Source: Crambe crambe
Lineage: Eukaryota > Porifera > Demospongiae > Poecilosclerida > Crambeidae
Assembly (NCBI GenBank): GCA_963924555.1
Contig: OZ004587.1
Location: 3,968,001-4,032,000, forward strand
DNA length: 64,000 bases
Direction of reading: 5' to 3'
The position numbers were made by a program, and so were the translations under genes. Of the stretch, positions 25,930 through 56,318 are shown one piece after another. The notes below the pieces were generated by a model, which saw only the letters and a program-made list of their open reading frames with translations, was not told the origin of the DNA and ran no database searches. Numbering within the stretch: the first letter of the stretch is position 1; each line of letters begins with the position of its first letter.

Positions 25930-27365
25930 CAGTCTAATCGCCAGCGTACATTTACAATACTTTTTGTATTACATGATGACGTCATAATTTTTGAGAAAAT
26001 GGCCGCTGAGGTACATCTCTTGAGCTCGGCTTTTCATCAGACTAGATACCTTATAGGTGGTAGGTTTGTTCTCAACAGATGGTGATAGGCTTATTCTACC
26101 TTACCATCCGCTATGTAAGTAAACAGTAGCTCTTTTTAGCATAGAATAGCCATGGTGGTTGAGAGTCATGGAAGTTTAGATGGCTTTTAAGGGCCCTTCA
26201 GAGAGATGAACAGAAGTTATCTTACTACAAACATATAGTCAGTATGTATTCTAACATGTATGTCCATACTTTAGGTTGATACTTACGTTTTACAGCAAAT
26301 GGCCCATGTTTGTATATATAAGTGTATGTTTAATATAATCATAGCAGTGTTAAAATCATTCTCAAGTTAGAATTTTTCATCTGTCTCAAATAATTTTCAT
26401 GTCTACTTTGATAGGGTAGACTGTTCATTACTGATCTGGCTCAAATAAGGGTTGATATGTCGGGTGATGGGCAATATTTAGAGTACTGTTCCCTGTGTTG
26501 GATCTGATACACATTCACTCCCTATGAGCTTGCAAGTTGCAAGGTACTGTAAACCTGAATGTAGTGTTCCTTGAAAGTGTGTTTACTGTGTTATTCACAG
26601 TGAACGCCACCAGTTATTTCCCTGTTAGAAGGTGTGGCTATGTTAGTATGCCTGTAGACCCTGTTTTGCATTGCAGTTTAATATACCAGTAGTTACTGGT
26701 TTAGGCCTTTGGTCCTGGGTGAAAATTTACATTTCCTGCTACTCGGTTATAGCAAGCTTGACATTGGGTCCAAAATTAACATTTGTTCCATATTCTCTGG
26801 ATGTATATACTGCACACTCTCCTTATGACACAAATGTAGCAGGGGCTACGTTTACTCCGATGTACTATGTACTTTACTTGTCATTGATCACTGCAGGCAC
26901 TGAAGAAGAAACAAAGCTGTCAAGACTGTAGTCATTATAGTGTGTATTGTGATTTATTTGTGGCAAAGATGTGGTGTCATTTATACTGTGTTATTATGTT
27001 TGAACAGAAATGATTGTTGGATATATACATGCAGTAAGTATTCCTCTATAGAATGTACCTGGTATCAAAATGAAATAACTTGTTTACAGGAAATGGCCCT
27101 ATAATCCAACAATACACTTGAAATTGAGACATGGCTTGATAACTCTCTAGTGGTAATAGCTACGTGTACCAAATTCACATTAAAGGTCATCTGTGCCGGC
27201 CTAAAACTGCCGCCCAAGTCTTGTTGATTTATGTTGACAGAATCCAGAGATACAAGGTCATAAAAAATTTCCTAGTATCCCAGTGTCCGTATATTCCGCG
27301 TGATGAGCATGTAAATGAAATTGTATTGCGTAAATACAACCGGATGCACGCTGGCGATTAGACTG
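25930..27365. mobile_element. CAGTCTAATCGCC DNA transposon, non-autonomous copy 1
   Basis: Left end CAGTCTAATCGCCAGCGTAC, right end its reverse complement (GCACGCTGGCGATTAGACTG); similarity extends inward about 45 bp. AAAT abuts both sides and may be the target duplication. A TGATGACGTCAT site lies near the left end. 1.44 kb, no long reading frame. The same left end begins the element at 60663, and the word ACAGCAAATGGCCCA (26293) recurs inverted at about 60950. Confidence 0.75.
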
Positions 27366-27540
27366 AAATGGCGGATGAAAAGTAGCTAGTGCATCTATAC
27401 CACTGAATTGTGAAGTATAACCTTAGTGAAAACGAATAGCAAAAGATCAGCCTCTAAGTACCGCTCCATCTAATCGCCATGTTATAATTGTGACAACTAT
27501 AGCCAGTTAGTCAGTACGCCGATCTGATTATTATTATGTT
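27366..27540. repeat. Fragment of the 4200-4340 repeat
   Basis: About 27400-27535 matches 23240-23385 (and 4200-4340 inverted): AATAGCAAAAGATCAGCCTC and ACTATAGCCAGT are shared, with more differences than the other two copies show from each other. Confidence 0.65.
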
Positions 27541-28230
27541 GAAAAACTAGAACAAAAGTCAATTTTTGAAATTATTTTTTGTTGATGTTATAGAATGAAT
27601 TTTAGATTATTATACATTGTCCTGTCTTCTGTGTAGATGTAGGGATAGGGCCATGACTTGTGAGAACCTGTAGAGTAAGGGTAGAAGAGAAAGAAGAGTT
27701 TTTAGTTTATACTGTCCTATGGACTTTGACCTGCCATCCCTACTTAGAGAGTGCTACCGCACTCTCTGATAAAGAAAATGAACAAAAGTCAATTTTAGAA
27801 CTCGTTTTTTTCTTATGTTAGCGAATGAATTTTTGGTTTTTGAACACTCTCCTCTCTTCTTTGTAGAAGTAGTATCTCACTGTAGCCTTCTGAGAACCTG
27901 TAGAGCAAGGGTAGAAGAGAAAGAAGAGTTTTTAGTTTATACAGTCTTATGACCTTTGACCCGCCATCCCTACTTAGAGAGTGCTAGCGCACTCTCTGAT
28001 AAAGAAAAAGAACGAAAAATCAATTTTAGAACTCGTTTTTTTCTTATGTTGGCGAATGAATTTTCGGCTTTTGAACATTCTCCTCTCTTCTTTGTAGATA
28101 TAATAATTCACTGTAGCCTTCTGAGAACCTGTAGAGTGAGAGTAGAAGAGAAAGAAGAGTTTTTAGTTTATACTGTCCTATGGACTTTGACCTGCCATCC
28201 CTACTTAGAGAGTGCTACCGCACTCTCTGA
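27541..28230. repeat. Three-unit satellite with hairpins, ~230-bp period
   Basis: Three head-to-tail units of about 238, 231 and 218 bp, each ending in CTACTTAGAGAGTGCTACCG plus CACTCTCT, a 22-base hairpin. Each is the reverse complement of 2885-3150. It sits precisely between the two direct copies of the CAGTCTAATCGCC element. Confidence 0.8.
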
Positions 28231-29262
28231 TAGCAGTGTTAGAATCATTCTCAAGTTAGAATTTTTCATCTGTCTCAAATAATTTTCGTGTCTACTTTGA
28301 TAGGGTAGACTGTTCATTACTGATCTGGCTCAAATAAGGGTTGATATGTCGGGTGATGGGCAATATTTAGAGTACTGTTCTCTGTGTTGGATCTGATACA
28401 CATTCACTCCCTATGAGCTTGCAAGTTGCAAGGTACTGTAAACCTGAATGTAGTGTTCCTTGAAAGTGTGTTTACTGTGTTATTCACAGTGAACACCACC
28501 AGTTATTTTCCTGTTAAAAGGTGTGGCTATGTTAGTATGCCTGTAGACCCTGTTTTGCATTGCAGTTTAATATACCAGTAGTTACTGGTTTAGGCCTTCG
28601 GTCCTGGGTGAAAATTTATATTTCCTGCTAGCTACTCAGTTATAGCAAGCTTGACATTGGATCCAAAATTAACATTTGTTCCATATTCTCTGAATGTGTA
28701 TACTGCACGCTCTCCTTATGACACAAATGTAGCAGGGGCCACGTTTACTCTGATGTACTTTACTTGTCATTGATCACTGCAGGCACTGAAGTAGAAATTC
28801 AAGAAACAAAGCTGTCAAGACTGTAGTCATTATAGTGTGTGTTGTGATTTATTTGTGGCAAAGATGTGGTGTCATTTATACTGTGTTATTATGTTTGAAC
28901 AGAAATGATTGTTGGATTTATACATGCAGTAAGTATTCCTCTATAGCTAGAATGTACCTGGTATCAAAATGAAATAACTTGTTTACAGGAAATGGCCCTA
29001 TAATCCAACAATACACTTGAAATTGAGACATGGCTTGATAACTCTCTAGTGGTAATAGCTACGTGTACCAAATTCACACTAAAGGTCATCTGTGCCGGCC
29101 TAAAACTGCCGCCCAAGTCTTGTTGATTTATGTTGACAGAATCCAGAGATACAAGGTCATGAAAATTTCCTAGTATCCTAGTGTCCGTATATTCTGCGTG
29201 ATGAGCATGCATGTAAATGAAATTGCGTAAATACAACCGGATGCACGCTGGCGATTAGACTG
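28231..29262. mobile_element. CAGTCTAATCGCC element, truncated copy 2
   Basis: Direct repeat of 26342-27365 (about 1.03 kb), starting at TAGCAGTGTTAGAATC and ending in the same right terminal repeat at 29262. The left quarter of the element is missing. Small insertions and deletions relative to copy 1 are scattered through it. Confidence 0.8.
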
Positions 29263-29560
29263 CAAGACTCTGTAGCAAAGTTCTCCTTGGAAGCAGACTT
29301 TAAAGAGATGATTATGGAGGGTTCACACACTTCTTTCTCAGTCCTCTGACCTGATCCTCCATCCGGTGTAGTAGTGAAATGGGGCCCCCCTGGTTTTGGG
29401 GCCCCTGTTGCAGTGATTTCTGTTTCCCCGGGTTGCGTGTTTCCCCGCACATATAACCCTAGGGAGGAATGTTTCCCAACGGTGGGTCAAAGGTCATCAC
29501 AAAGTTTCCAGGGCTGGATGTTTCCTTGGTTCTTGCTTGCGGCGCTGCATCAGAGCTCCT
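29263..29560. other. GC-run repeat fragment
   Basis: 29352-29480 contains CCGGTGTAGTAGTGAAATGG, GGGGCCCC runs, and GTTTCCCCGGGTTGCGTG. The reverse complement of this string of motifs is at 40385-40490, and the CCGGTGTAG..GGGGCCCCC part recurs inverted at about 43220-43290. A 28-codon open stretch at 29268-29351 (VAKFSLEADFKEMIMEGS) is too short to call. Confidence 0.5.
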
Positions 29561-29639
29561 AGCCAGCTTTTTAGTTGCAGTTTTCTCTCTGACAGGTATC
29601 ATGTAACCAGTCATGTTTAATATTCTGTCCTGCGATTGT

Positions 29640-29853
29640 TGTCCATAGCAATTGGCCTATGACTGCTGTCATCTCAGGTATCTATAGCTGCATCACATTA
29701 ATTTTTTATCAAGGAGTGATAATGCAGGATTATAGAACCAGGCACTCAAGAGCAATTGGTCTCCAAATAAGAAATGCAACGTACTTGAAGTGATGGAGAC
29801 TAGAATAACCAGTCTTCTTACAGCACAGTTCCTACTGTGGCCAGAGATCATAA
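29640..29853 (+). pseudogene. Fragment similar to the 3' exons of the 35213-39397 gene
   Basis: At 29778-29853 a frame ends TSLLTAQFLLWPE, against TGLHIAQFILWPE at about 39212-39250. The DNA agrees too (GCACAGTTCCTACTGTGGCC versus GCACAATTCATACTATGGCC). Upstream, SNWPMTAVIS resembles SQWPIELVDL of the preceding exon. Probably the remnant of a second copy of that gene or element. Confidence 0.45.
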
Positions 29854-29884
29854 CTAGCTATAGTAATTGTTGATTATAAGATTA

Positions 29885-30475
29885 TGCACACTTTTAGTGA
29901 AGGAATAAGCAGGGGAAACACATATCCCTGATCAGTGATATGCGTTCCCCTGACATGAAATTTGCAGCAAAGGGATTATACATTCCTGATCAATATACCC
30001 TGGTATATGTAAGGTAATATTCCTCACTAGAGGTTTCTTTTATTGAAGGAATAAGCAGGGGAAACATATATCCCTGATCAGTGATATGCGTTCCCCTGAC
30101 ATGAAATTTGCAGCAAAGGGATTATACATTCCTGATCAATATACCCTGGTATATGTAAGGTAATATTCCTCACTAGAGGTTTCTTTTATTGAAGGAATAA
30201 GCAGGGGAAACATATATCCCTGATCAGTGATATTGTTCCCCTTACATAAAATTTGCAGCAAAGGGAATACACATTCCTGATCAGTGTACCCTTGCCTGAC
30301 ATAAGATAAAATCAATTAGCTATAATGACCAGATATTTCTTTTTGTGAAGAAATAAGCAGGGGAAACACATACCCCTGATCAGTGATATGTGTTCCCCTG
30401 ACATGAAATTTGCAGCAAAGGGATCATACATTCCTGATCAGTATACCCTGATATAATTATTATGTAAGGTAAAAA
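29885..30475. repeat. ~150-bp minisatellite, left part
   Basis: Four units with the words GAATAAGCAGGGGAAACA, CCCTGATCAGTGATATGCG, TTCCCCTGACATGAAATTTG and CAGCAAAGGGAT. The same array continues at 31415-32420; the intervening LINE-like segment splits it. Confidence 0.85.
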
Positions 30476-30512
30476 ATCAATTATTCCTAAACCACCTTTT
30501 TGGACATGTGAT

Positions 30513-31126
30513 TCAGGGCTCGCTTGCTAGCTGCTACTAAAAAGGAGTCTGGGGCATGGCTACATGCGTTGCCAGTATCGTGTCTTGGACTGAGACTTGA
30601 TGATGACACCATTAGAATTGCTGTTGGCCTGTTACCTCATCTCTGTAGTCACTGTGGTTCCCCTGTAGATGTCCTTGCCACTGCAGAAAGAGTTAGGGGA
30701 GACATTTGAGGCATAGTTCCATCAATGCCTTGATAAAAAGATCTTTATCATCTGCAAAAATCCCATCTAAATTAGAACCAAGTGGAATCAGTAGAAGTGA
30801 CGGAAAGAGACCTGATTGAGTCACCCTTTGCCCTTGGTATGGGACTTCACTTTTTCTATATTGCACGTCAGCCTGGCTGCTTGAAGCACGAAATGTGGCT
30901 AATGAAGCGGAACACAAGAAGAAGGTCAAATATTCAAACTTAGGAGATCAGTACCTCTTTGTCCCGTTGGCAGTGGAGACATCAGGATCCTTTGGTTCAG
31001 CTGCCATGTCATTCTTTGGAGAAGGATTAGGGAAAACACTGGGGAGATAAAGTCTTACTTTTATTTAGTGCAGAGATTGTCCATAGAGATACAAAGAGGC
31101 AATGCTTCTGCTGTGCTGGGGACTTA
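30513..31126 (+). pseudogene. C-terminal end of a LINE-type reverse transcriptase polyprotein
   Basis: [19 protein letters not shown], then [11 protein letters not shown] and a CxxCG pair, is the post-RT C-terminal region that I know from non-LTR polyproteins of invertebrates. It continues near 30725 (NALIKRSLSS, IPSKLEP, RSDGKRPD) and near 30960 (FVPLAVETSGSFGS), ending RLSIEIQRGNASAVLGTY and TAA at 31126. The order matches the family, but the frame is interrupted by stops and deletions, so it is a 5'-truncated, degenerate copy. Family assignment beyond non-LTR is from memory. Confidence 0.6.
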
Positions 31127-31414
31127 TTAACTTTAACCATATAGTTTTTTTGTTTTTTTGTTTGTTTATTTTTTGTTTTTTTGTTGGCATTTCATTATTG
31201 ATTCTCCGTTTCCGGATTCCCATCTCATTTTTGTATCTAGAACTCGTTATTATTATTATTATTATTATTGCAGTCATGTTATCGTTTTTGTTTTTGTTTT
31301 CCACTAGCTTTCTTCTTGGTATTTGTTTGTTCTAGAAAAAAAACTTCTGATCCTGAAGTTGAATTTACACCTGTTTAAAAAAAAAGAAGAAAAAACCTCA
31401 CCAGAGATTAGCTA
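31127..31414. other. T-rich tail and simple repeats after the LINE fragment
   Basis: T-rich stretch (TTTTTTTGTTTTTTTGTTTG at 31145), an (ATT)n tract at 31246-31269 and an A9 run near 31377. This fits the 3' untranslated part and flank of a LINE insertion. Confidence 0.4.
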
Positions 31415-32420
31415 CTTTTAGTGAAGAAATAAGCAGGGGAAAGATATCCCCGATCAGTGATATGCGTTCCCCTGATATGAAATTTGCAGCAAAGGGAATA
31501 CACATTCTGTACCCTTGCCTGACATCAATTATACCTAACCTGAGGTTTCTTTTAGTGAAGAAATAAGCAGGGGAAACACATATCCCTGATCAGTGATATG
31601 CGTTCCCCTGATATGAAAGTTGCAGCAAAGGGAATACATATTCCTGATCAGTGTACCCTTGCCTGACACAAGGTAAAATCAATTAGACTCTATACCTTAC
31701 CTGAGGTTCTTTTAGTGAAGGAATAAGCAGGGGAAACACATATCCCTGATCAGTGATATGCGTTCCCCTGATATGAAATTTGCAGCAAAGGGAATACACA
31801 TTCCTAATCAGTGTACCCTTGCCTGACATAAGGTAAAATCAATTATACTTCACCTGAGGTTTCTTTTAGTGAAGAAATAAGCAGGGGAAACACATATCCC
31901 TGATTAGTGATATGCATTCCCTTGACACGAAGTTGGCAGCAAAGAGATCATAGTTATATTCCTGATCATTATTTTGCTGAATATCAGATTTATTACTTAC
32001 CCTTGGTTGGGCATAATATTCCACTCAGCCCATGGCCTCTTGAAATATTGCCACCATGTAATAAGTCATGATAATATTATTCAAAGCATGAATGTGCAAT
32101 AAATACCTCACTTGAATTTAGTAAAGGAATTAGCAAGGGAAACATATGCATTCCCCTGACATTATTCCTGATCAGTGTATACCTTGCCTGACATGAGGTA
32201 AATCTTACCCGAGGTTTCATGAAGGGAGTGATAGTGTTCCCCTGACATACTGATGTATAATCCCTTTGCTCTGATATATTTTCCTGCTTGTTTCTAAGAG
32301 GTATAAGCTATAATATCAGGGTATCTGTATCTTTGCTGCAAATTTCATGTCAGGGAAACACATATCACTGATCAGGGATACGTATGTGTTTCCCCTGCTT
32401 ATTCCTTCACTAAAAGAAAC
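31415..32420. repeat. ~150-bp minisatellite, right part
   Basis: Four good units followed by degenerate and inverted partial units (32150-32420, where TTCCCCTGCTTATTCCTTC reads in the opposite sense). Each unit has GGGGAAACACATATCCCTG and its near-reverse complement GATATGCGTTCCCCTG, so every unit can fold. Confidence 0.8.
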
Positions 32421-32924
32421 CTAAGGTGAAGTGAACGAAATTGATGTTGAAGCAAAAGTATATTATAAGGTCTAATTTTTCTCAATTTTAATTTCTTAAG
32501 TGTCCGTAACCATCCCATACAAGCATTCTTCCCTAGGGCCCTCTCATGCATGCATGAGTAACTATGACTGAGCATGCTCAGTTTCAATCCATATGCAAGG
32601 TCGACCACGCCTACTTGTGTGACCACACCCACCACTGAGTAAAACAACAGCAACAACAACAACAACAGTTGCTGTGTGGCCAGCTTTGGACAAGTTTTTT
32701 CTTGTTTCTTGATTTGTGCTGTTTGTGCACTATGTAATCCTTGTAGTGGTTTTGGTTTTGTGCATGTCTTTTCTTGTCTTTACACTCGGTGCATGTTTTT
32801 TCTTGTCTTGGTGATTTTTATATAAATAGGAGCATTCTAGTTGTAGTCAGTTTATTGTAAAGTTCTATAGCTAGTGGGACGAAAAAATCTATCTTCTGAT
32901 TTGGCTTTCATCTATCCTTCAAAC
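32421..32924 (+). promoter_or_regulatory. Upstream region of the integrase gene
   Basis: Holds direct repeats of TTTTTTCTTGTCTT (three variants at about 32695-32810), a palindromic GAGCATGCTC, and a TATA-like TTTATATAAATAG at 32817-32829, about 100 bases before the ATG. No terminal inverted repeat of a Ginger element was found; one CCGT lies at 32504-32507. Confidence 0.45.
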
Positions 32925-34019
32925 ATGGATGATAAACAATATGAAGCTCTGTACCTTTATATCAATGATGGAAAATATCCCCTTGGATACAGCAAAAGTG
33001 AGAAGTTCATGCTACGAAGGAGTAGTAAAAATTTCTTTGTTCAAGGAGAGCAGTTATTTTATATCTCCAAAAGACCTGATGGCACTTCCTTTAATCGTTT
33101 AGTACTATGTGGTCAAGAAGAAGCTGAAAGGGCTTTTTTAGAATGTCATTTGACTACTGGTGGTCACAGAGGGAGGGATGCTACCACGAGTAAGATAAAG
33201 GAAAGATACTATTGGCCTCTCTACTACAAAGAAATTGAAGAAAAGGTTTGTGTTTAAGCATAGGTTCACTTTTTGTTACATGGTAAAGAAAAGTTTTTAT
33301 AGGTAATAATACGGTAATTTCCTCCCATGATATTTCTTCCTTATAAATATATAGTTCTTTAATGGGTGTGCAGGCATTACCTGTGTGTGTTTACAGTTAT
33401 CCAGTGTGGATTTCTGTTGATTTATCAATGCTATGTACTAACTGATTCTGAGGGACCTTAATTGGTTCTACTTCTGCAGATCAAGAGATGTGACAGGTGC
33501 CAAAGGAATGCATCACAGCTGAAAAAAGCTGTAGTTGAGCTTCAACCAGTAGCTGTTGAGCCACAGGTGTGGTATCTGGTTGGAATGGATATAATTGGTC
33601 CTTTTCAAAAAAGTGCCAATTTCTCATATATCCTCACAATGACAGACTATTTCAGTAAATATGTTGAAGCAGTGCCGATAGAAGATAAATCAGCAATCTC
33701 AGTGGCCAAAGCTATTTACAAGGTGTATTGTAGACATGGAGCTCCTGTGAGCATTATTTGTGATCAGGGAAAGGAGTTTACAAATCAGGTATTTTTTTAA
33801 AATAATAGCTGACTGTTAATTTCCTTGTAAAGTTGAAATTCTTTTTATATTGAAAGCTTATTGAAACACTTCATCAAAGCTTTATGGTAAAAATGCGGAT
33901 TACCTCACCATACCATCCACAATCAAATGGCTTAGATGAACGAACTAACCAAACACTTAAGAGGTAATGGTGGCACAGTAAATAGAGAAATCTCCTTAGT
34001 CGTCATCATCACATTAATG

Positions 34020-34103
<84 letters not shown>

Positions 34104-34810
34104 GCCTAATTTCATATGCATTTCAATAGGTCACTATCCAAGCTCATGTATGATCATGATGATGACTGGTGTCACTATCTTGATGTTGCAGTCTTTTCAA
34201 TTAATACAAGTATCCAGCTCACTACAAAGTATTCTCCATTTAGGATGATGTTTGGGAGAGAGCCACGTTTCCCACTGGAAGCAGAAAAACAGGGACAGAG
34301 GGAATGCTTTGAAAATATTTTAAATACTTTTGAAGACATTGAAGGAATAATGCAGAGATTTATCAAGAAGCAGCAAAATATCTTTGTGTCGGCTGAGCTG
34401 AACATACAAAAATCACAAAAAAAGCAGAAAGAGCAATACCTAAAGCGCAAAGGAATGCTGCAATATGGATTTAAAGAAGGTGACATGGTATTGCGAAGAA
34501 ATATGAGACAAAAGACAAAAAAAGGACATAAAAATGAAGACAGATGGTAATTTTGAAAGACTAAACACAGTCGTGTATTATTCGTTAATTTTGTAAATTC
34601 AGGTTGGGTCCATATAAGATTTCAAATATGAAGAAGTCAACCTGCCAGCTAGAGACCAAACTGGGGAAAAGGCTGAAGACTCTTGTTAACCTCAGTCAGC
34701 TGAAACCTTACAGTCAGCCTACATTGGGTAATAATGATGCCATAGAGCATATCTGTGACCGGCTCTGGGAAAACCCTCCGTCCGGTGCAAAAATCAATTA
34801 TCAGATATGA
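32925..34810 (+). CDS. Gypsy-type integrase gene, five exons (Ginger1-like)
   Basis: Exons 32925-33245, 33480-33788, 33857-33963, 34130-34546 and 34603-34810 are bounded by GT and AG with phases 0, 0, 2 and 2. Residue order: the N-terminal block YLYINDGKYPLG and LRRSSKNFFVQGEQLFY; an H2C2 zinc finger (HLTTGGH ... CDRCQRN); a DDE core with Asp in VGMDIIGPF, Asp in IICDQGKEF and Glu in NGLDERTNQ; and a C-terminal GPY module (WLGPYKI). About 460 residues. This is the full domain set of Ginger1 DNA-transposon integrases and of host genes derived from them (GIN1). All catalytic residues are present and every exon is open. The ATG at 32925 is chosen because it starts the conserved block; an in-frame upstream stretch has no ATG. 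A USP/Ulp1 gene follows 400 bp downstream on the same strand. Confidence 0.85.
34020..34101. repeat. (ATA)n/(TTA)n microsatellite in integrase intron 3
   Basis: An ATA tract runs directly into a TTA tract, forming an inverted repeat able to fold as a hairpin. Confidence 0.95.
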
Positions 34811-35212
34811 GCACGTTTAGTTGGCAGTGCCAAAATTTGGCTAAAAATTTTTTTAAGCATAAATGACAACTATGATCCTTGAACAAAGCACAGATGAAGT
34901 TTGGAGCTCAGACTACAAGTAGGCTACAAGTAGGCAAAGGCTTCAAATGAAGCGCTAAAGTTAGCTAGTCAGCCATTGAAGCTTCGTGCACGGAGATTCT
35001 AGTCAGGCTGAAATTCATTGAACTTTAGGCAGGCTTTCCAGCTTATGCGCTGGGAAATATGAACTTACTAAGCTATCTGCGCTACCTTCGGTACCTTGCT
35101 TCTCTTCTCGGAGCTTTGGTTGGACCTTTCTTACTACAGTTAATTTCACTAGCTAATAATACAAGGGTGTTAAATAATTTATAGTTGGACCCATATCAAA
35201 AGCTAAAGTGTT
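34811..35212. other. Spacer between the integrase and protease genes
   Basis: About 400 bp without conserved coding sequence. An acceptor-like TAATTTATAG at 35174-35183 and an in-frame stop at 35204-35206 precede the next ATG. It could be an intergenic spacer or an intron if the two genes are spliced together. Confidence 0.5.
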
Positions 35213-36586
35213 ATGTATGATACAACAGTTCCATGGGGTCATAGCTTTCTTATTAAAATTGAAGGCATTCCTTCATGTCCAAAATCTGAAATTCCTCCTC
35301 CTTCTCCTCCTCCTCCTCCCCCTGCTGTTGCTGCAGCTGCTACTATTGCTATTAAAGAAGAAGTTTATGAACTTCCCCCTCCTGCAAAGAAATTCTGTGC
35401 CATCTCTGAAGAAAAACTTACGTTAAGCAATGTGGTAAGTGAAGGTTAACTAATAAACTTCCTCCACCTTCACTCCCAACTCAACCAGAAAAAATACTGT
35501 GGAATTACCAACAAAGAGAACAGTTGTTGGTTGATATCATGCATACAGTTATTAATAAATGGAACAAATATTCATCACTTCCTCCATGGTACGTTCTGCA
35601 AATACCATGATGTAACTAGCTATAAAATATGATACCAAAAGGTATGAGAAGCACCAATGAAGTCCAGGTTGAGTATTGTGATATCTGTAAGTCATTGGAC
35701 ATGCATCAATCAGTGAATATTCTATGCTTAAAGGTACAAAATCTGAAATCGGTATTAATTTTCTACATTATTACTTAAACAATTTTTCTTCTAGTCCATG
35801 CTCAAGAGTAGCCTAGTTGGTTCTGCACAACAGGATGCTGCTGAAGGTTTGCAGTGCTTAATAAACAAATTGACAGAATGTATTAACATAAGTAGTTTAA
35901 CACACTGATACTATCTAGATTAATAATGAAACTATGGAGCTCTCAATTTCATTTTTATGCAGGAAGATGCACTCCTTACCTTCTCATATTTAAGTCAGTC
36001 ATATTGCACTTCTTGCCATAATGGAGGAACCAAAAAGGTATACTCATAATGACTGTGACTGTTTCACCTATTCTAAGTCATTTCTTGCCCTAGCTACATA
36101 TGATACATGTTTATTTCTTATCAGTTCAGTGATGTTGGAGTGGAAGAACATAATATTTTATATTGCTCTCTTGGTAAATCTTGTGAAGATATTGCAGTAA
36201 AGGATCTGATTACCACAAATTATGACCTTGAAAGAGTCACCAAAGGACCTAATAACAGGTATTAATATCTATAATTATAACTACTATGGCTGTAATAATA
36301 TTCTGGATACAGAAGGTGCACGAACTGTTTCAAACCAGGAGGAATATATGTGACCTCAAAACTTAAAAATGCCCCTAAGTACATTTTTATCACTTGTAAA
36401 AGGACACTGTTTGGCAGAAAGAGGTCAGGCCCCCCAAAAAGATCAAACAGGCCAGTCACCATCCAAAGGTGAAACTCTATGCCATTATAGTATTGCCACC
36501 CTATTATTCTTCTGCATTCCAGGGAAATGAATGTGAAGCTTGATAATGGTCATGAGATTCAATATGACCTACAAGGTTTTATAGTG

Positions 36587-36629
<43 letters not shown>

Positions 36630-39397
36630 ATTATGAAAATAGTTGTTTTTTTAAGTTTCATCATGGTACCACAACAAAAAGTGGACATTGTAAGTTTTCA
36701 CCAAATAAGCTACCTATAGACTATGATAGTTTTCATTTCTTAGACACTGCTTACACTCTGACTCAGCAAGATACTTTAATCCACTTCAATGATGTACAAG
36801 TTTCAGAAGTAGAAAGTAGTGTTATTGAGTCTACTTATATTCAGGTATACACTAGAATCACATTAATTTCATGAATCAATAATGAGTATTAATTCTATGC
36901 AGAGGAATGTTGTAATCATTCTCTACTCTACTCCTCAAATATCAGTAAGAATTACCTCTCTATAGCTACCACGATTTAATACTTTCTACAACCTACACAA
37001 CATACATTCAGGTACATATTTTGAAAACTGATGTCAGTAATTTACAAATGGAATTAAAGGTAAATCATAATGTATACGTAGCAGTTATACTTATCATTAT
37101 TGCGTATCATTTAATAGGACTTCAGCATTGAGGAGGAAATGAAGGTATAGCTAGTGATCATAATGATAGCTAAGTTTCTGAATAATGATAACACATTTCG
37201 CAGGAGAACTGAGTGCTTTCGTTATCTTTGTAGATTGTTTCATCTTTCAGTGACTCGCTGTTAGAATCAAGCTTATGGAGATTAAATGATAGTGAATGGC
37301 TGGATGATGTGGTAAATAATGTGAATGCATTATCAAATGCATGCATGATGATAAAAGGGCTCGTTTGCTCGTAGATTATCAACAAATATTTTTCACTTAT
37401 TGTTGATGAGAGTGCTTCTGATGCTAAGGTGAGATGACTAGCTGCAGCTCTCTACTGCTCTTATTCTTATATCTATTATAAATAGCTCAAAGTTGCAGCA
37501 GCAAATACTTTTTTTGGTACCTCTTTTTTGTTGCATGGTTATATAAAATCAAAGAAGTATTTCCCTGAGGTAAGAGTAGCTGTATTGAATTTGAATTCTG
37601 ATGTCAGATATTATAATTTCCAGAAAAATTGCTTTGACAACAACATTATTTTAATTCCATGGAATATACACAGTTCTCACTGGATATTAGTGGTAAGTAA
37701 TAAAATTCATTATACAACATTAATCATCATTATTACACAGGTTATAAAACCAAAGGAAAGAAAAATGATCTACATGGACTCTTCTCTAGAGCTTTCCAAT
37801 TCTAGTATTGAAAATAATATTTGGTAAGACTATAAGCATGAAAATTAATGACACGTGCAGCTAAAGTGCCATAATTATTATAGATATTTTTTATGTGAGT
37901 TGAGTCAGGAGTCTGGACATATCGGTGAAATGGACCAGACTGAGTGGAAGAGGTGGAATTCTGAAGTAAATGACTTGATTATTATAATTATGATTATTAT
38001 CAATCTGTTTCACCATGCACAGATGGGATGTATGCCATTACAGACTAATACATCTGACTGTGGAGTATTTATATGCATGGTAAGTTGAATGATTGACACA
38101 AAATAGTGCAATGTTGTGCAAAACCATATTCCTGCACAGATTCAGGCAACAACCCATGTACTTTGTATTTATACGTCCCCCTCCCCCCTCTCCCTATAAT
38201 CTTCCCCCTGTACTGAATAATATCTTACTTACAGGCTGCTCGCTTCATAGTAATAGATGAAGTTCCTTCCTTCAGCCAGGTATGGTATGGTCAAAATTTG
38301 CTACTAATATTTTTTATTGTTGTAGCTAATAGGCCGACATACCTCACTTAAGGAGGGTGATGAAGAATGAGCTAAGACAGGGGAAATTGATGCCCATCAA
38401 ATTCAAGGAAAATGGTGTAGATTCTGTATGTAATTAAAATAAGGCAATAAACTATCATAATTATAAGCAGAGTCCAAAAGAAGTGAATCAGATAATCAAA
38501 GTGAATCCAACAAGGAGTCAGGATCAAAAGCTAATGGTAATTTCAGCATAGTCAATAGACTACATGTATCTGTCTTTGCAAAAAAATGAACTTAAATTTG
38601 CTAATCATGATAATCAGTCTGATTTTCAGCTCTTTTGATCATTAAATTTAAGTGATTCAGTATTGCCAGCAAACTTCCTATTCCCATCCTTCCAAGAAGA
38701 CCAAACAAATTATGATAGTGATGATATTTTCACTTTTGATAAAAGAAGCATAAAAGACAGGTGGCTGGATATAGCAAAAATGTATTATCGTGATAAAAAG
38801 GTCCTATTGCTTCAGACAGGTATGTATAATAGGGGAGTAATCTTATGGTAGTATGCAAAGCATTGATATTTTCATTAATATTAGTCACTGTATCTTCAAA
38901 AGGGAATTCGTGAGAAGGGTGATCAAAGAAAATGAGGTAGCTATTTGATTTAAAATTTAATACAAAACTATAATGACAGGAATTGTGGAGAGGAATCATA
39001 GAAGGAAGAGTTTCAAGTTCATACACTACATATCCTACACGTGCACAGAGAAAAAAAATAGCATCTCAGTGGCCTATAGAGCTGGTGGACTTGGTACATA
39101 ATAATTATAGCTAGCTAATAATTATTCTACTATCTCTAATTTTTTTAGGGATTTGAAGTGGAACATTATCTTAAAGCACTTCAGTGCGATGTGCAGCAGA
39201 TAAACAATATCACGGGTCTTCATATAGCACAATTCATACTATGGCCAGAGGTGATAACTATGAAATTGGTGTATAGTATAGTATTAGTTACTGTTGTATA
39301 GGCAATGATCCAGCTCATTAAAGAACGATTTGAAATCAAAAGAACTGAAGCGGACAGAATATACAAAAATCAAATTTGTTTAAGCACCTTTAGCTAA
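35213..39397 (+). CDS. Dual-protease gene: USP (C19) plus Ulp1 (C48) domains
   Basis: About twenty short exons on the plus strand, from ATG 35213 (in-frame stop just upstream) to TAA 39395-39397. The first exon is proline-rich (IPPPSPPPPPP). Next come all landmarks of a ubiquitin-specific protease (35489 to about 36840), then a Ulp1/SENP-type SUMO protease (37234 to about 38430), then a tail with acidic and Ser-rich exons. A USP removes ubiquitin and a Ulp1 removes SUMO, so the protein would handle both. Exons are mostly 50-150 bases with GT/AG borders; not every junction could be phased by eye, notably around 37823-37861. Ginger1 transposases are known to carry a C-terminal Ulp1 or OTU protease; the USP is extra. 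Whether it is a host gene or part of a transposon is open. Confidence 0.75.
35489..36841 (+). other. USP-type deubiquitinase domain
   Basis: Cys box KKYCGITNKENSCWLISC (35489-35542), aligned to GxxNxxNxCYxNSxLQ; the catalytic Cys is in NSCW. The QQDA box (SAQQDAAEGLQCLI) is near 35824. Two zinc-binding pairs follow: YCTSCHNGG (about 36005) and RCTNC (about 36314). The strand before the His box reads APKYIFITCKRTLF. The His box is at about 36580-36690: DLQGFI, then an intron with a (CT)n tract, then FHHGTTTKSGHCKF. Both catalytic Cys and His are present. The order and spacing match the family; the domain is compact, roughly 300 residues. Confidence 0.75.
36591..36656 (+). other. Short intron with (CT)n polypyrimidine tract in the USP His box
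   Basis: GTGAGC at 36590 and TTTTTTAAG ending at about 36655 bracket about 66 bp with 16 or so CT repeats. Removing it joins GFI to FHHGTT, which fits the USP family; reading through inserts a Ser-Leu run. Confidence 0.55.
37234..38435 (+). other. Ulp1/SENP-type protease domain
   Basis: Starts with RLNDSEWLDDV / IINKYFSLIV across an intron (37234-37311, 37375-37428), the usual WLxDxxIxxYxxLL opening. The His of the triad is in SSHWILV (about 37680), Asp in MIYMDSS (about 37780), and Gln and Cys in PLQTNTSDCGVFIC (38034-38076). The end reads DIPHLRRVMKNELRQGKL, as in SENPs. The triad is intact. Confidence 0.85.
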
Positions 39398-40330
39398 CAT
39401 TTTGTTTTATGTAATTTCAGTGTTATTTCTCACTATAATCTGTATAGCTACGTATACGAGCGAGCAGAGCGAGTGAGTTGACTCTGATCAGGTTATGAAA
39501 TTGTAGATAGACTCCAAAATTCCCCATAAGATACGTATGTATGTACATGTCCTGAGTTAGTATATACCACCACCCCGAATTAGTAGCACCTGTCCTTATA
39601 GTATTTTAGGTATGAAAAGGGATAGCTATATTAATTCCTTCAAAGTCAAGCTTATTATGCTTTTCACTGATTATTGAACTCATTATAGCGATTAAAATGG
39701 TTTCTGCACTAGCTAAATGACACCTATTATTTCTTTGTTTTGATACATACAAATGGCACCCCAATATTATACTGCACTGATATGGGAAAAAAAATAAAAT
39801 TGGGCTGCATAAAGAAAGGACATAGCTAACCCTGACTGATGATACTTATTGCTGGACATACGTACATACATAAACTAAATGAAACACAGTTGAGATAATT
39901 ATTAGCTATATATGATGTAGAGGGAACTTGGTGTTCCCTAATTTCTTTAGTATTCAGGACATGTCGCTTAGGCCGAGCAGAGTTTATCGTCACCTCCCTC
40001 ATCATCAAAATATTGAATTTTTAGTGAGGCATTTCAGACAAAAATTTGAAAAATTGGTACATTTTATTCATTTGCTTATCCAAAGTACAATATTGAATGG
40101 TGACCAGGTTCCCTCCCTCATGGAAATCTGAAAGTCTTGTGTTTGTGTGGCCTTATCAGGGAAGTGGATATGTTCCTCTGCTGGTTCTTTCACATGTTGG
40201 GTGGCTCATACTTATTATTAGCTGGTTAATTAGCTAGTTTATCATGTCATGTCCCTTACAACACGGAACGACTGACTAGCTACGTTGCAAGAGACTAGCA
40301 GATAATACAGATCGTAGCTATAGCTAGCTA
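39398..40330. other. Stretch 3' of the protease gene, no gene seen
   Basis: Contains GAGCGAGCAGAGCGAGTGAG near 39458, a word that recurs near 46865 followed in both places by GTTATGA..TTGAAATTGTA and CTCCAAAAT.CCCC, so it is a dispersed repeat. No terminal repeat matching the region upstream of 32925 was found. Confidence 0.45.
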
Positions 40331-40339
40331 TTCGCGATG

Positions 40340-40640
40340 GAAACATTCTACCCGGGGAAACACTTACCACTGCCGGCAATGAATCTTCGCAGTTCAGTGC
40401 TCAATGTGCGGGGAAACATTCCTCCCTAGGGTTATATGTGCGGGGAAACACGCAACCCGGGGAAACAGAAATCACTGCAACACCCCCCATCCCCAAATCA
40501 CTAGAGATTTAGGGCTGGGGGGGGGGGGGGGGGGGGGGGGGGCCCATACAACTAGGGTTATGGGGACCCCGTAGTCCCCATATTCCTAGGGCTATATAGG
40601 GACCAGTCAGTGATATGGGGCCCCCTCAATTTTCCAAGCT
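40340..40640. repeat. GC-run repeat end with G26 tract
   Basis: GGGGAAACACGCAACCCGGG and TATCACTGC-like words match 29385-29475 (inverted) and 58600-58760. A run of about 26 G is at 40517-40542, followed by TATGGGGACCCCGTAGTCCC. It directly precedes the minisatellite at 40560 onward. Confidence 0.65.
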
Positions 40641-41915
40641 TCCTAGCAAAATAAAAGCTTTTGCATGCTATAGGGACCAGTCAGTGATATGGGGCTCCCT
40701 CAATTTTCCAAGTTTCCTAGCAAAATAAAAGCTTTTGCTATAGGGACCAGTCAGTGATATGGGGCCCCCTCAATTTTCCAAGCTTCCTAGCAAAATAAAA
40801 GCTTTTGCTATAGGGACCAGTCAGTGATATGGGGCCCCCTCAATTTTCAAAATAAAAGCTTTTGCTATAGGGACCATCAGTGATATGGGGCTCCCTCAAT
40901 TTTCCTAGCAAAATAAAAGCTATAGGGACAGTCAGTGATATGGGGCTCCCTCAATTTTCCAAGCTTCCTAGCAAAATAAAAGCTTTTGCTATAGGGACCA
41001 GTCAGTGATATGGGGCCCCCTCAATTTTCCAAAGCTTCCTAGCAAAATAAAAGCTTTTGCTATAGGGACCAGTCAGTGATATGGGGCCCCCTCAATTTTC
41101 AAAATAAAAGCTTTTGCTATAGGGACCATCAGTGATATAGGGCTCCCTCAATTTTCCTAGCAAAATAAAAGCTATAGGGACAGTCAGTGATATGGGGCTC
41201 CCTCAGTTTTCCAAGCTTCCTAGCAAAATAAAAGCTTTTGCTATAGGGACCAGTCAGTGATATGGGGCCCCCCTCAATTTTCCAAGCTTCCTAGCAAAAT
41301 GCTTTTGCTATAGGGACCAGTCAGTGATATGGAGCCCCCTCAATTTTCAAAATAAAAGCTTTTGCTATAGGGACCATCAGTGATATAGGGCTCCCTCAAT
41401 TTTCCTAGCAAAATAAAAGCTATAGGGACAGTCAGTGATATGGGGCTCCCTCAATTTTCCAAGCTTCCTAGCAAAATAAAAGCTTTTGCTATGGGGACCA
41501 GTCAGTGATATGGGGCCCCCTCAATTTTCAAAATAAAAGCTTTTGCTATAGGGACCATCAGTGATATGGGGCTCCCTCAATTTTCCTAGCAAAATAAAAG
41601 CTTTTGCTATAGGGACCAGTCAGTGATATGGGGCTCCCTCAATTTTCCAAGCTTCCTAGCAAAATAAAAGTGTTTGCTATAGGGACCAGTCAGTGATATG
41701 GGGCTCCCTCAATCTTCCAAGCTTCCTAGCAAAATAAGCTATAGGGACCAGTCAGTGATATGGGGCTCCCCCAATTTTCCAAGCTTCCTAGCAAAATAAG
41801 CTATAGGGACCAGTCACTCTCTGAATTTTCCAAGCTTCCTAGCAAAATAAAAGCTGTCAGTGATATGGGGCTCCCTCAGTTTTCCAAGCTTCCTAACAAA
41901 ATAAAAGCTTATGGT
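40558..41915. repeat. ~70-bp minisatellite, about 20 units
   Basis: Unit: TATAGGGACCAGTCAGTGAT then ATGGGGCCCCCTCAATTTTC, CAAGCTTCCTAGCAAAATAA and AAGCTTTTGC. A shorter variant lacking the CCAAGCTTCC part recurs at regular intervals, so there is a higher-order repeat of about 290-310 bp (compare 40800-41090 with 41040-41400). Confidence 0.9.
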
Positions 41916-54996: not shown

Positions 54997-56318
54997 GAGT
55001 CAGTGATATGTGCTTATCTCATGCACAGTCCATTCAGATTGCATTAATTTGAGGGGAAACACATATCACTGACAATAGAAGTCGGTGATATGTGTTTATC
55101 TCATGCAAGTCCATTCAGATTGCACTGAGGGGAAACACATATCACTGACAATAGAAGTCGGTGATATGTGTTTATCTCATGCAAGTCCATTCAGATTGCA
55201 TTAAATTGAGGGGAAACACATATCACTGACAATAGAAGTCGGTGATATGTGTTTATCTCATGCAAGTCCATTCAGATTGCATTAAATTGAGGAAACACAT
55301 ATCACTGACAATAGAAGTCGGTGATATGTGTTTATCTCATGCAAGTCAATTCAGATTGCATTAAATTGAGGGGAAACACATATCACTGACAATAGAAGTC
55401 GGTGATTTGTGTTTATCTCATGCAAGTCCATTCAGATTATTGCATTAAATTAAGTCAATGAGGGGAAACACATATCACTGACAATATAGAAGTCAGTGAT
55501 ATGTGTTTATCTCATGCACAGTCCATTCAGATTGCATTAAACTGAGGGGAAGCACATATCACTGACAATAGAAGTCAGTGATAATTGTTTATCTCATGCA
55601 AATCCATTCAGATTGCATTAAATTGAGGGGAAACACATATCACTGACAACAGAAGTCATCACTGACAATACAAGTCAGTGATTTGTGTTTATCTCATGCA
55701 AGTCCATTCAGATTGCATTAAATTGAGGGGAAACACATATCACTGACAATAGAAGTCAGTGATATGTGTTTATGGTTTCTATCTACAATTTGATTGTCAC
55801 AGTGAAACTTTAAATAGAACTAAGCTTTTGTACGAAAGGATCGAGTGATAGATATCTGCTGGTGATATTGTGGGCCTCTGGTAAACTTTCGAGGGGGAGT
55901 GGAGAAGTGGCATAAGGGTAGTGCGATTGCTTTGAAGGCAGTTGTGTGTTAGTTCGAATCTGATTTTCTTCATAAGTTTATCTCATGTATGCATTAAATT
56001 GAGGGGAAACATATCACTGACAATAGAAGTCAGTGATATGTGTTTATTTCATGAACAGTCCATTCAGATTGCATTAAATTGAGGGGAAACACATATCACT
56101 GACAATAGAAGTCGGTGATGTGTTTATCTCATGCAAGTCAATTCAGATTGCATTGAAGTTGGCAACTATGTAGCTAGAGTTCATTCAGATTGCATTAAAC
56201 TGAGAGGAACATATATAATTATATCACTGACAATAGAAGTCATGTGTTCTATTTTATGCACAGTCACATTATTCAGATTGCATTAAACTGAGGGGAAACA
56301 TAATAGAAGTCTGAGATA
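54997..56318. repeat. ~86-bp minisatellite, about 14 units
   Basis: Units: GGGGAAACACATATCACTGA, CAATAGAAGTCGGTGATATG, TGTTTATCTCATGCAAGTCC, ATTCAGATTGCATTAAATTG. Each unit contains ATATCACTGA and TCxGTGATAT as an inverted pair, so each can fold. Interrupted at about 55780-55980 by unrelated sequence with a tRNA-like segment. Confidence 0.9.
55905..55975 (+). ncRNA. tRNA-like segment (SINE head or tRNA pseudogene)
   Basis: GTGGCATAAGGGTAGTGCG resembles an A box and AGTTCGAATCT, 34 bases on, resembles a B box (GGTTCGAATCC). Spacing fits a pol III promoter. Acceptor-stem pairing is poor, so it is probably not a working tRNA. Confidence 0.4.

Follow-up and report, generated by a model that had tools for sequence, protein, structure and literature searches.

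An integrase–USP–Ulp1 gene predicted in a Ginger1-type transposon of the sponge Crambe crambe

The DNA analysed here is a stretch of 64,000 nt from the sponge Crambe crambe (GCA_963924555.1, contig OZ004587.1, positions 3,968,001–4,032,000 of the forward strand), called the window below, and coordinates refer to it unless a copy is named. It contains a transposon of 11,077 bp (29406–40482) flanked by 72-bp terminal inverted repeats (TIRs), which belongs to a family of near-identical dispersed copies, family A. The best explanation overall, which we regard as probable, is that family A is a cut-and-paste transposon of Ginger1 type, in which one polypeptide would combine an integrase, a ubiquitin-specific protease (USP, C19) and a SUMO protease (Ulp1, C48), with deconjugation near the transposition complex. 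A preliminary description of the locus proposed an integrase gene followed by a gene for both proteases at 32925–39397, in a mobile or domesticated unit resembling Ginger1. The domains, their order and the Ginger1 likeness with USP beside Ulp1 were all recovered, with USP and Ulp1 above profile cut-offs. The 6.5-kb interval was correct as start (32925) and stop (39397) of the gene, while the mobile unit is the larger 29406–40482, and the evidence favours one gene over two.

The ends of the element are well defined. The left TIR (29406–29477, + strand) starts with TGTTG, which fits TGTNR, and its 72 nt are 100% complementary to the right TIR (40411–40482, − strand), which ends in CAACA. Target site duplications (TSDs) of 4 bp, both CCCC, adjoin the TIRs at 29402–29405 and 40483–40486 (no strand assigned); because the flanks are C-rich, this TSD is weak evidence for the window copy. 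In the 143-Mb genome searched for copies (contigs labelled C1, C5, C6, C8, C9, C10 etc., with the window on C10), the 72-nt TIR had 38 matches, 26 of which formed 13 pairs. These pairs bound 11 elements of 11.0–14.5 kb and two of 4.0–4.7 kb, both short ones on C15. TSDs were exact in 10/13 TIR-bounded elements and had one mismatch in 3/13; 22/156 non-partner flank pairs matched as well, because target sites are alike. The exact TSDs were CCGG (three), ACGG/CCGT (three), CCGC/GCGG (three) and CCCC (one), and 6/10 are of published Ginger1 types. The two short C15 elements have flanks in common and may represent a single insertion event. One of them (L046) retains both ends and has no match to the coding part, an internally deleted derivative; the sequence looked at in the second was its ends only.

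Integrase matches were examined in 13 family A copies, the window copy included, which are near-identical and dispersed. The copy number is at least 13, a lower bound because 150 of 632 candidates were scored in the integrase search. For the C18 copy, the pre-insertion site (flanks joined, with one TSD) was found intact at no fewer than five loci, at 100% over 120/120 nt, among 40 matches listed of 99 candidates. The presence of the empty site at five other loci means that this copy was inserted into a dispersed repeat, the empty form of which is common. With the same approach, the joined flanks of the C8 copy matched a repeat over part of their length only. Judged from sequence, copies, TIRs, TSDs and one insertion with empty sites establish the mobility of family A, and we have little doubt that it is a Ginger1-type mobile element. 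The preliminary description had held that dispersed copies with TIRs would mark a transposon, and this is what the genome contains. Its other option, a domesticated host gene, could draw on conserved exons, many introns and ratios of nonsynonymous to synonymous substitution rates (dN/dS) mostly below 1. However, the near-identical copies scattered through the genome, with their TIRs and TSDs, and the insertion with empty sites contradict it for family A, where we consider it extremely improbable; single diverged copies of other families could still be such cases.

Three insertions coincide in their surroundings. The copies at C18:4276509 and C9:6088523 occupy one and the same site, ACTGCAGG-ACGG-CACCA, in a dispersed repeat, the C9 copy in reverse orientation, and the left flank and first bases of the right flank of the copy at C6:7211461 match the same repeat. 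These coinciding sites suggest a target preference beyond four bases. A Gypsy long terminal repeat retrotransposon was rejected as a candidate: the terminal repeats are inverted and no direct terminal repeat was listed, and no open frame between the TIRs exceeds 148 aa, compared with >1,000 aa at many integrase matches in the genome (reverse transcriptase was not profile-searched).

Domains were identified with Pfam profiles, at cut-offs of 25.5 bits (Integrase_H2C2), 32.6 bits (rve), 23.9 bits (UCH) and 20.7 bits (Peptidase_C48). In single open frames alone, H2C2, rve and C48 exceeded these values and the USP fragment fell below. The spliced integrase of the window scored 56.9 bits for Integrase_H2C2 and 45.3 bits for rve, both over cut-off. 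Its GPY module was located by motif search rather than profile, with LGPY at residue 386 in family A and at residue 377 in a second family, B. Upstream of the zinc finger, YPYY appears in A and B as YP followed by aromatic pairs, as read by regular expression and eye. An integrase with D-D-E and GPY had been described here before, and in the window copy this part is indeed uninterrupted.

The USP part gained from correct splicing. For UCH, the window scored 33.8 bits with an initial exon set that was incomplete; the C8 copy (L009) scored 64.1 bits with inclusion of the exon equivalent to 36316–36468, in which the zinc ribbon has its second CxxC, and family B 76.3 bits. A USP below threshold, on which the preliminary description had made its proposal depend, was thus not what the profiles returned. 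Compared as a single sequence with solved chains, the domain matched USP28 and USP30 weakly (E 0.0004 at best), and the alignment to USP28 in a weak match (E 0.004) covers its Cys, His and ND boxes. The motifs are a Cys box NSCWLIS, a QQD box, two CxxC, and SGHC and ND boxes. With Cys, QQD, zinc ribbon, His and Asn/Asp boxes in place, the domain is a predicted deubiquitinase of the C19 kind. Peptidase_C48 scored 68.0 bits in A (first window model) and 84.1 bits in B. Its closest solved structures are SENP1 and SENP2, and in alignment with SENP1 the H-D-Q-C residues are present, namely H (SSHW), D (YMDS) and Q/C (QTNTSDCG). The spliced proteins scanned with profiles had no OTU match, and no protein homologue of the USP–Ulp1 query was found at E ≤ 0.001 among 7,174 candidates. 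Behind Ulp1 follows a conserved C-terminal domain of ~190 residues, for which no Pfam profile reached its cut-off in A or B; RTC4 (17.7 against a cut-off of 23.7 bits in A, no hit in B) and EcoRII-C (under cut-off) were not used.

Exon structure bears directly on whether the locus is one gene. Modelled on L009, the family A gene comprises 32 exons joined in phase at GT-AG sites and contains a single internal stop, which lies in the integrase. In family B (C1 copy), 36 exons in phase encode 1,240 aa with GT/GC-AG throughout, no internal stop and the same domain order, and 22 of the 31 family A introns have the same column and phase in B. The frame is preserved when exon 5 (end 34727, phase 1) is spliced to exon 6 (35229). 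A further family, D, resembles A in that its last integrase exon ends in a phase-1 donor at a similar position; in the D copy L021, the linker's second junction could not be set in phase by eye. In family B the integrase–USP linker consists of five repeated proline-rich exons, all of phase 0. This B linker (L044, 2643–3400), with five tandem PPPxSYQQPPQPSDKVPHSK-like exons, is a case of exon-by-exon repeat growth.

Diverged families have USP and Ulp1 exons side by side, in the same order and in phase, an argument against separate genes for the proteases. The transposon might instead carry two genes, an integrase gene ending soon after GPY and a USP–Ulp1 gene with its own start, given that exon 5 read straight on meets a stop and that an ATG lies at 35213, upstream of USP. 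However, in-phase splice sites join both parts in A, the five phase-0 exons join them in B, and family D has its phase-1 donor at a comparable place. Moreover, in Ginger1 as described by Bao et al. (PMC2836005), the proteases form the C-terminal part of the transposase. Two genes therefore appear unlikely, and from the exon structure we are fairly confident that the locus is one 32-exon gene for a single predicted polypeptide with integrase, USP, Ulp1 and the conserved C-terminal domain. A short integrase form plus a separate protease product might still be made.

In the window copy all integrase, USP and Ulp1 exons lie on the + strand, as do the remaining exons. The integrase part, with YPYY, H2C2, D-D-E and GPY, comprises exons 1–5 (32925–33245, 33480–33788, 33857–33963, 34130–34546 and 34603–34727). 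Exon 6 (35229–35434), joined to exon 5 at a phase-1 junction, encodes a proline-rich linker. The USP domain (35489–36944) is formed by exons 7–10 (35489–35588, 35642–35733, 35795–35887 and 35963–36037) and exons 11–15 (36125–36258, 36316–36468, 36523–36583, 36656–36844 and 36903–36944). After a short USP–Ulp1 spacer in exons 16–17 (37012–37059 and 37118–37144), the Ulp1 domain (37234–38414) is formed by exons 18–22 (37234–37311, 37375–37428, 37486–37569, 37624–37692 and 37741–37823) and exons 23–26 (37884–37965, 38023–38079, 38235–38279 and 38333–38414). Exons 27–32 (38471–38536, 38661–38819, 38903–38936, 38980–39093, 39149–39250 and 39302–39397) encode the C-terminal domain. Within intron 5, and no part of the gene, is a 374-bp high-copy repeat (34755–35128, + strand) without counterpart in the 12 other copies. 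This SINE- or MITE-like repeat (short interspersed or miniature inverted-repeat transposable element) has at least 39 other matches at 95–96% identity, with 40 scored of 538 candidates, one being the window's own.

The same domain arrangement recurs in the genome. Integrase, USP and Ulp1 stand in the same order and strand in 12/13 family A copies and 5/5 family B copies by hand tabulation, the thirteenth A copy having no Ulp1 in the next 7 kb, and also at one locus each of family D (L022) and family F (L059), the F integrase being ~30% identical. Three further family A remnants, at C9:5.39 Mb, C11:4.40 Mb and C19:2.70 Mb, have protease exons without a listed integrase match. Family E (L023, L025 and L026) has integrase and Ulp1: tblastn matched Ulp1 in 3/3, Peptidase_C48 scored 24.0 bits in L025 and 19.3 bits, just under the cut-off, in L026, and no USP match was found at E ≤ 1 in any of the three loci. 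Thus, not every such element requires a USP. This absence, together with the fact that transposons do capture genes, would suit a USP that is a chance-captured passenger without role in transposition. However, USP is retained in families A, B, D and F with its catalytic motifs, and with 63% identity between A and B, so that we doubt the passenger reading about as much as the two-gene one.

Between A and B, identities are 163/419 (39%) for integrase, 183/292 (63%) for USP, 131/202 (65%) for Ulp1 and 90/180 (50%) for the C-terminal domain; by these alignments both proteases are better conserved than the integrase. Within family A, dN/dS (Nei-Gojobori, 11 pairs of copies, 32 domain-by-pair values) was <1 in 31/32 comparisons, and these values are rough because changes are few and the early exon set, without exon 36316–36468, was used. 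Eight diverged pairs (window, C8a, C1 or C14 against C6, C5 or C8b) gave 0.19–0.30 for integrase, 0.16–0.30 for Ulp1 and 0.29–0.89 for USP. The values were 0.51 (integrase) and 0.65 (USP) for window/C10b, and 0.33, 0.25 and 0.50 (integrase, USP, Ulp1) for C1/C14. The pair window/C14 gave 0.50 for integrase, 1.52 for USP (1 synonymous and 6 nonsynonymous changes) and 0 for Ulp1.

Several observations weigh against the explanation favoured here. The gene is uninterrupted in 0/13 family A copies: 11 carry indels, lack exons or have changed splice sites, and L009 has its one stop in the integrase. In the window, exon 9 has no GT donor, which is present in 12/12 other copies; the exon 22/23 junction codon is a stop, which is not so in 10 others aligned; and exon 28 is shifted by one base from the frame seen in 10 of 11 other copies aligned, with a deletion at this place in the eleventh. 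Because of these three lesions, the window copy itself probably makes no working proteases. The USP His box reads SGHC in family A, where SGHY is usual and is found in family B, and USP dN/dS lies mostly above that of the other domains, on few changes. In family D, L021 has integrase and USP with no Ulp1 match, and L024 has only integrase within 10 kb. In family B, a search of the 11 kb surrounding the C1 copy revealed short subterminal repeats but no TIR.

Several repeats lie in and around the element. The 5′ subterminal region (29891–32432, no strand assigned) consists of ~146-bp repeats that have the word GGGGAAACA in common with the TIRs. This word has 24 matches in the window, whereas shuffles of the whole window give an expected mean of 0.52, and 14/24 are inside the element, in TIRs and subterminal repeats. 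The subterminal repeats with GGGGAAACA are possible transposase binding sites. The other 10/24 words form a separate tandem array at 55053–56300, the unit of which resembles the subterminal repeats of the element; a blastn comparison between the element and the remainder of the window yielded no match at E ≤ 1e-10. On the left, the element is adjoined by a direct duplication (26341–29265; spacing ~1.9 kb, segments 92–99% identical), and on the right by a repeat array (40592–41913) with units of 58–252 bp containing GTCAGTGATATGGGGC.

According to our model, a single intron-rich gene would be expressed through one spliced mRNA as a polypeptide of ~1,230 residues, with integrase, linker, USP, Ulp1 and C-terminal domain. 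Its integrase portion most likely binds TIRs containing GTTTCCCC and then excises the element, which would be inserted at mostly CpG-centred 4-bp sites (CCGG, ACGG/CCGT, CCGC/GCGG). Carried along with the integrase, the protease domains most likely strip proteins near the transposition complex of their SUMO and ubiquitin. One possible substrate is the transposase itself, which would be spared SUMO-targeted ubiquitination and degradation, and/or the substrates may be host silencing and repair factors. Retention of both proteases, and their higher conservation relative to the integrase, would fit action on conserved host proteins. We put deconjugation at the transposition complex forward tentatively, at slightly less than an even chance, with enzymatic activity and substrates inferred. 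Somewhat more speculative is that a single transposase holds a toolkit against SUMO-targeted ubiquitin ligases (STUbL), a SUMO protease plus a deubiquitinase erasing SUMO-dependent ubiquitin signalling at transposition sites, either for self-stabilisation or against SUMO-based silencing, with the protease half evolving slower than the DNA-cutting half.

Ulp1-like proteases process proteins in some DNA viruses. By analogy with such viral C48/C5-like proteases, the protease domains could chiefly process the polyprotein and free the integrase from the rest, rather than act on host conjugates, and their place downstream of the integrase in one predicted polypeptide would allow this. However, processing needs no two proteases of different specificity, the Ulp1 resembles SENP1/2, and conservation of the proteases above the integrase between A and B is as expected for conserved host substrates. 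Polyprotein processing thus seems a slightly less probable reading than the two doubted above, and deconjugation near the transposition complex is the role we favour.

As described by Bao et al. (2010, PMC2836005), Ginger1 elements are ~2.6–7 kb with 0–4 introns, TIRs of 40–270 bp, TGTNR ends and 4-bp TSDs of CCGG or CCGT/ACGG. Their proteases are OTU or Ulp1, "but not both", and no USP is in the list given there. The Crambe elements have H2C2, D-D-E, GPY, YPYY, TIR, TSD, and Ulp1 without OTU, with TIR and TSD assessed on family A, and by these published features fit Ginger1. The same authors suggest that OTU and Ulp1 act in transposition via the ubiquitin and SUMO pathways. With both kinds of deconjugase in one gene, and the proteases the better conserved part, this idea could be tested by single catalytic Cys mutations, and family E, with Ulp1 and no detected USP, offers a natural comparison within the same genome. 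No USP-bearing Ginger1 was found in searches of open-licence PMC papers, and a description in a database only (Repbase) or in a subscription journal is possible.

The nearest known systems are Ginger1 elements with C-terminal Ulp1 (Ginger1-4_HM to -10_HM), which are alike in the YPYY/H2C2/D-D-E/GPY integrase, TGTNR ends, TIR range, 4-bp CpG TSD and downstream Ulp1. In contrast to them, the Crambe element has USP between integrase and Ulp1, long copies of 11.0–14.5 kb instead of ~2.6–7 kb, 31 introns in the model instead of 0–4, and a further conserved domain at the C-terminus. The OTU-bearing Ginger1 elements of the same paper (Ginger1-1_HM etc.; PMC2836005) also combine an integrase with a ubiquitin-family cysteine protease, whereas in Crambe a USP (C19) stands in place of OTU as the deubiquitinase-type domain and is accompanied by Ulp1. 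The Trichomonas vaginalis protein XP_001314237.1 mentioned there likewise joins a C19 domain to a DNA transposase (transposase_11), but this transposase is of another family, and the passage on it does not mention Ulp1. Imagin, a crustacean domesticated Ginger1 integrase, is also Ginger1-derived and multi-exon, but according to the main text of PMC12863088 it is a host gene with catalysis lost; the words Ulp1, OTU and ubiquitin are absent from that main text and from the accessible text of PMC10045372. Since Bao et al. state "but not both" and list no USP, USP together with Ulp1 appears to be a new arrangement within the known Ginger1 kind.

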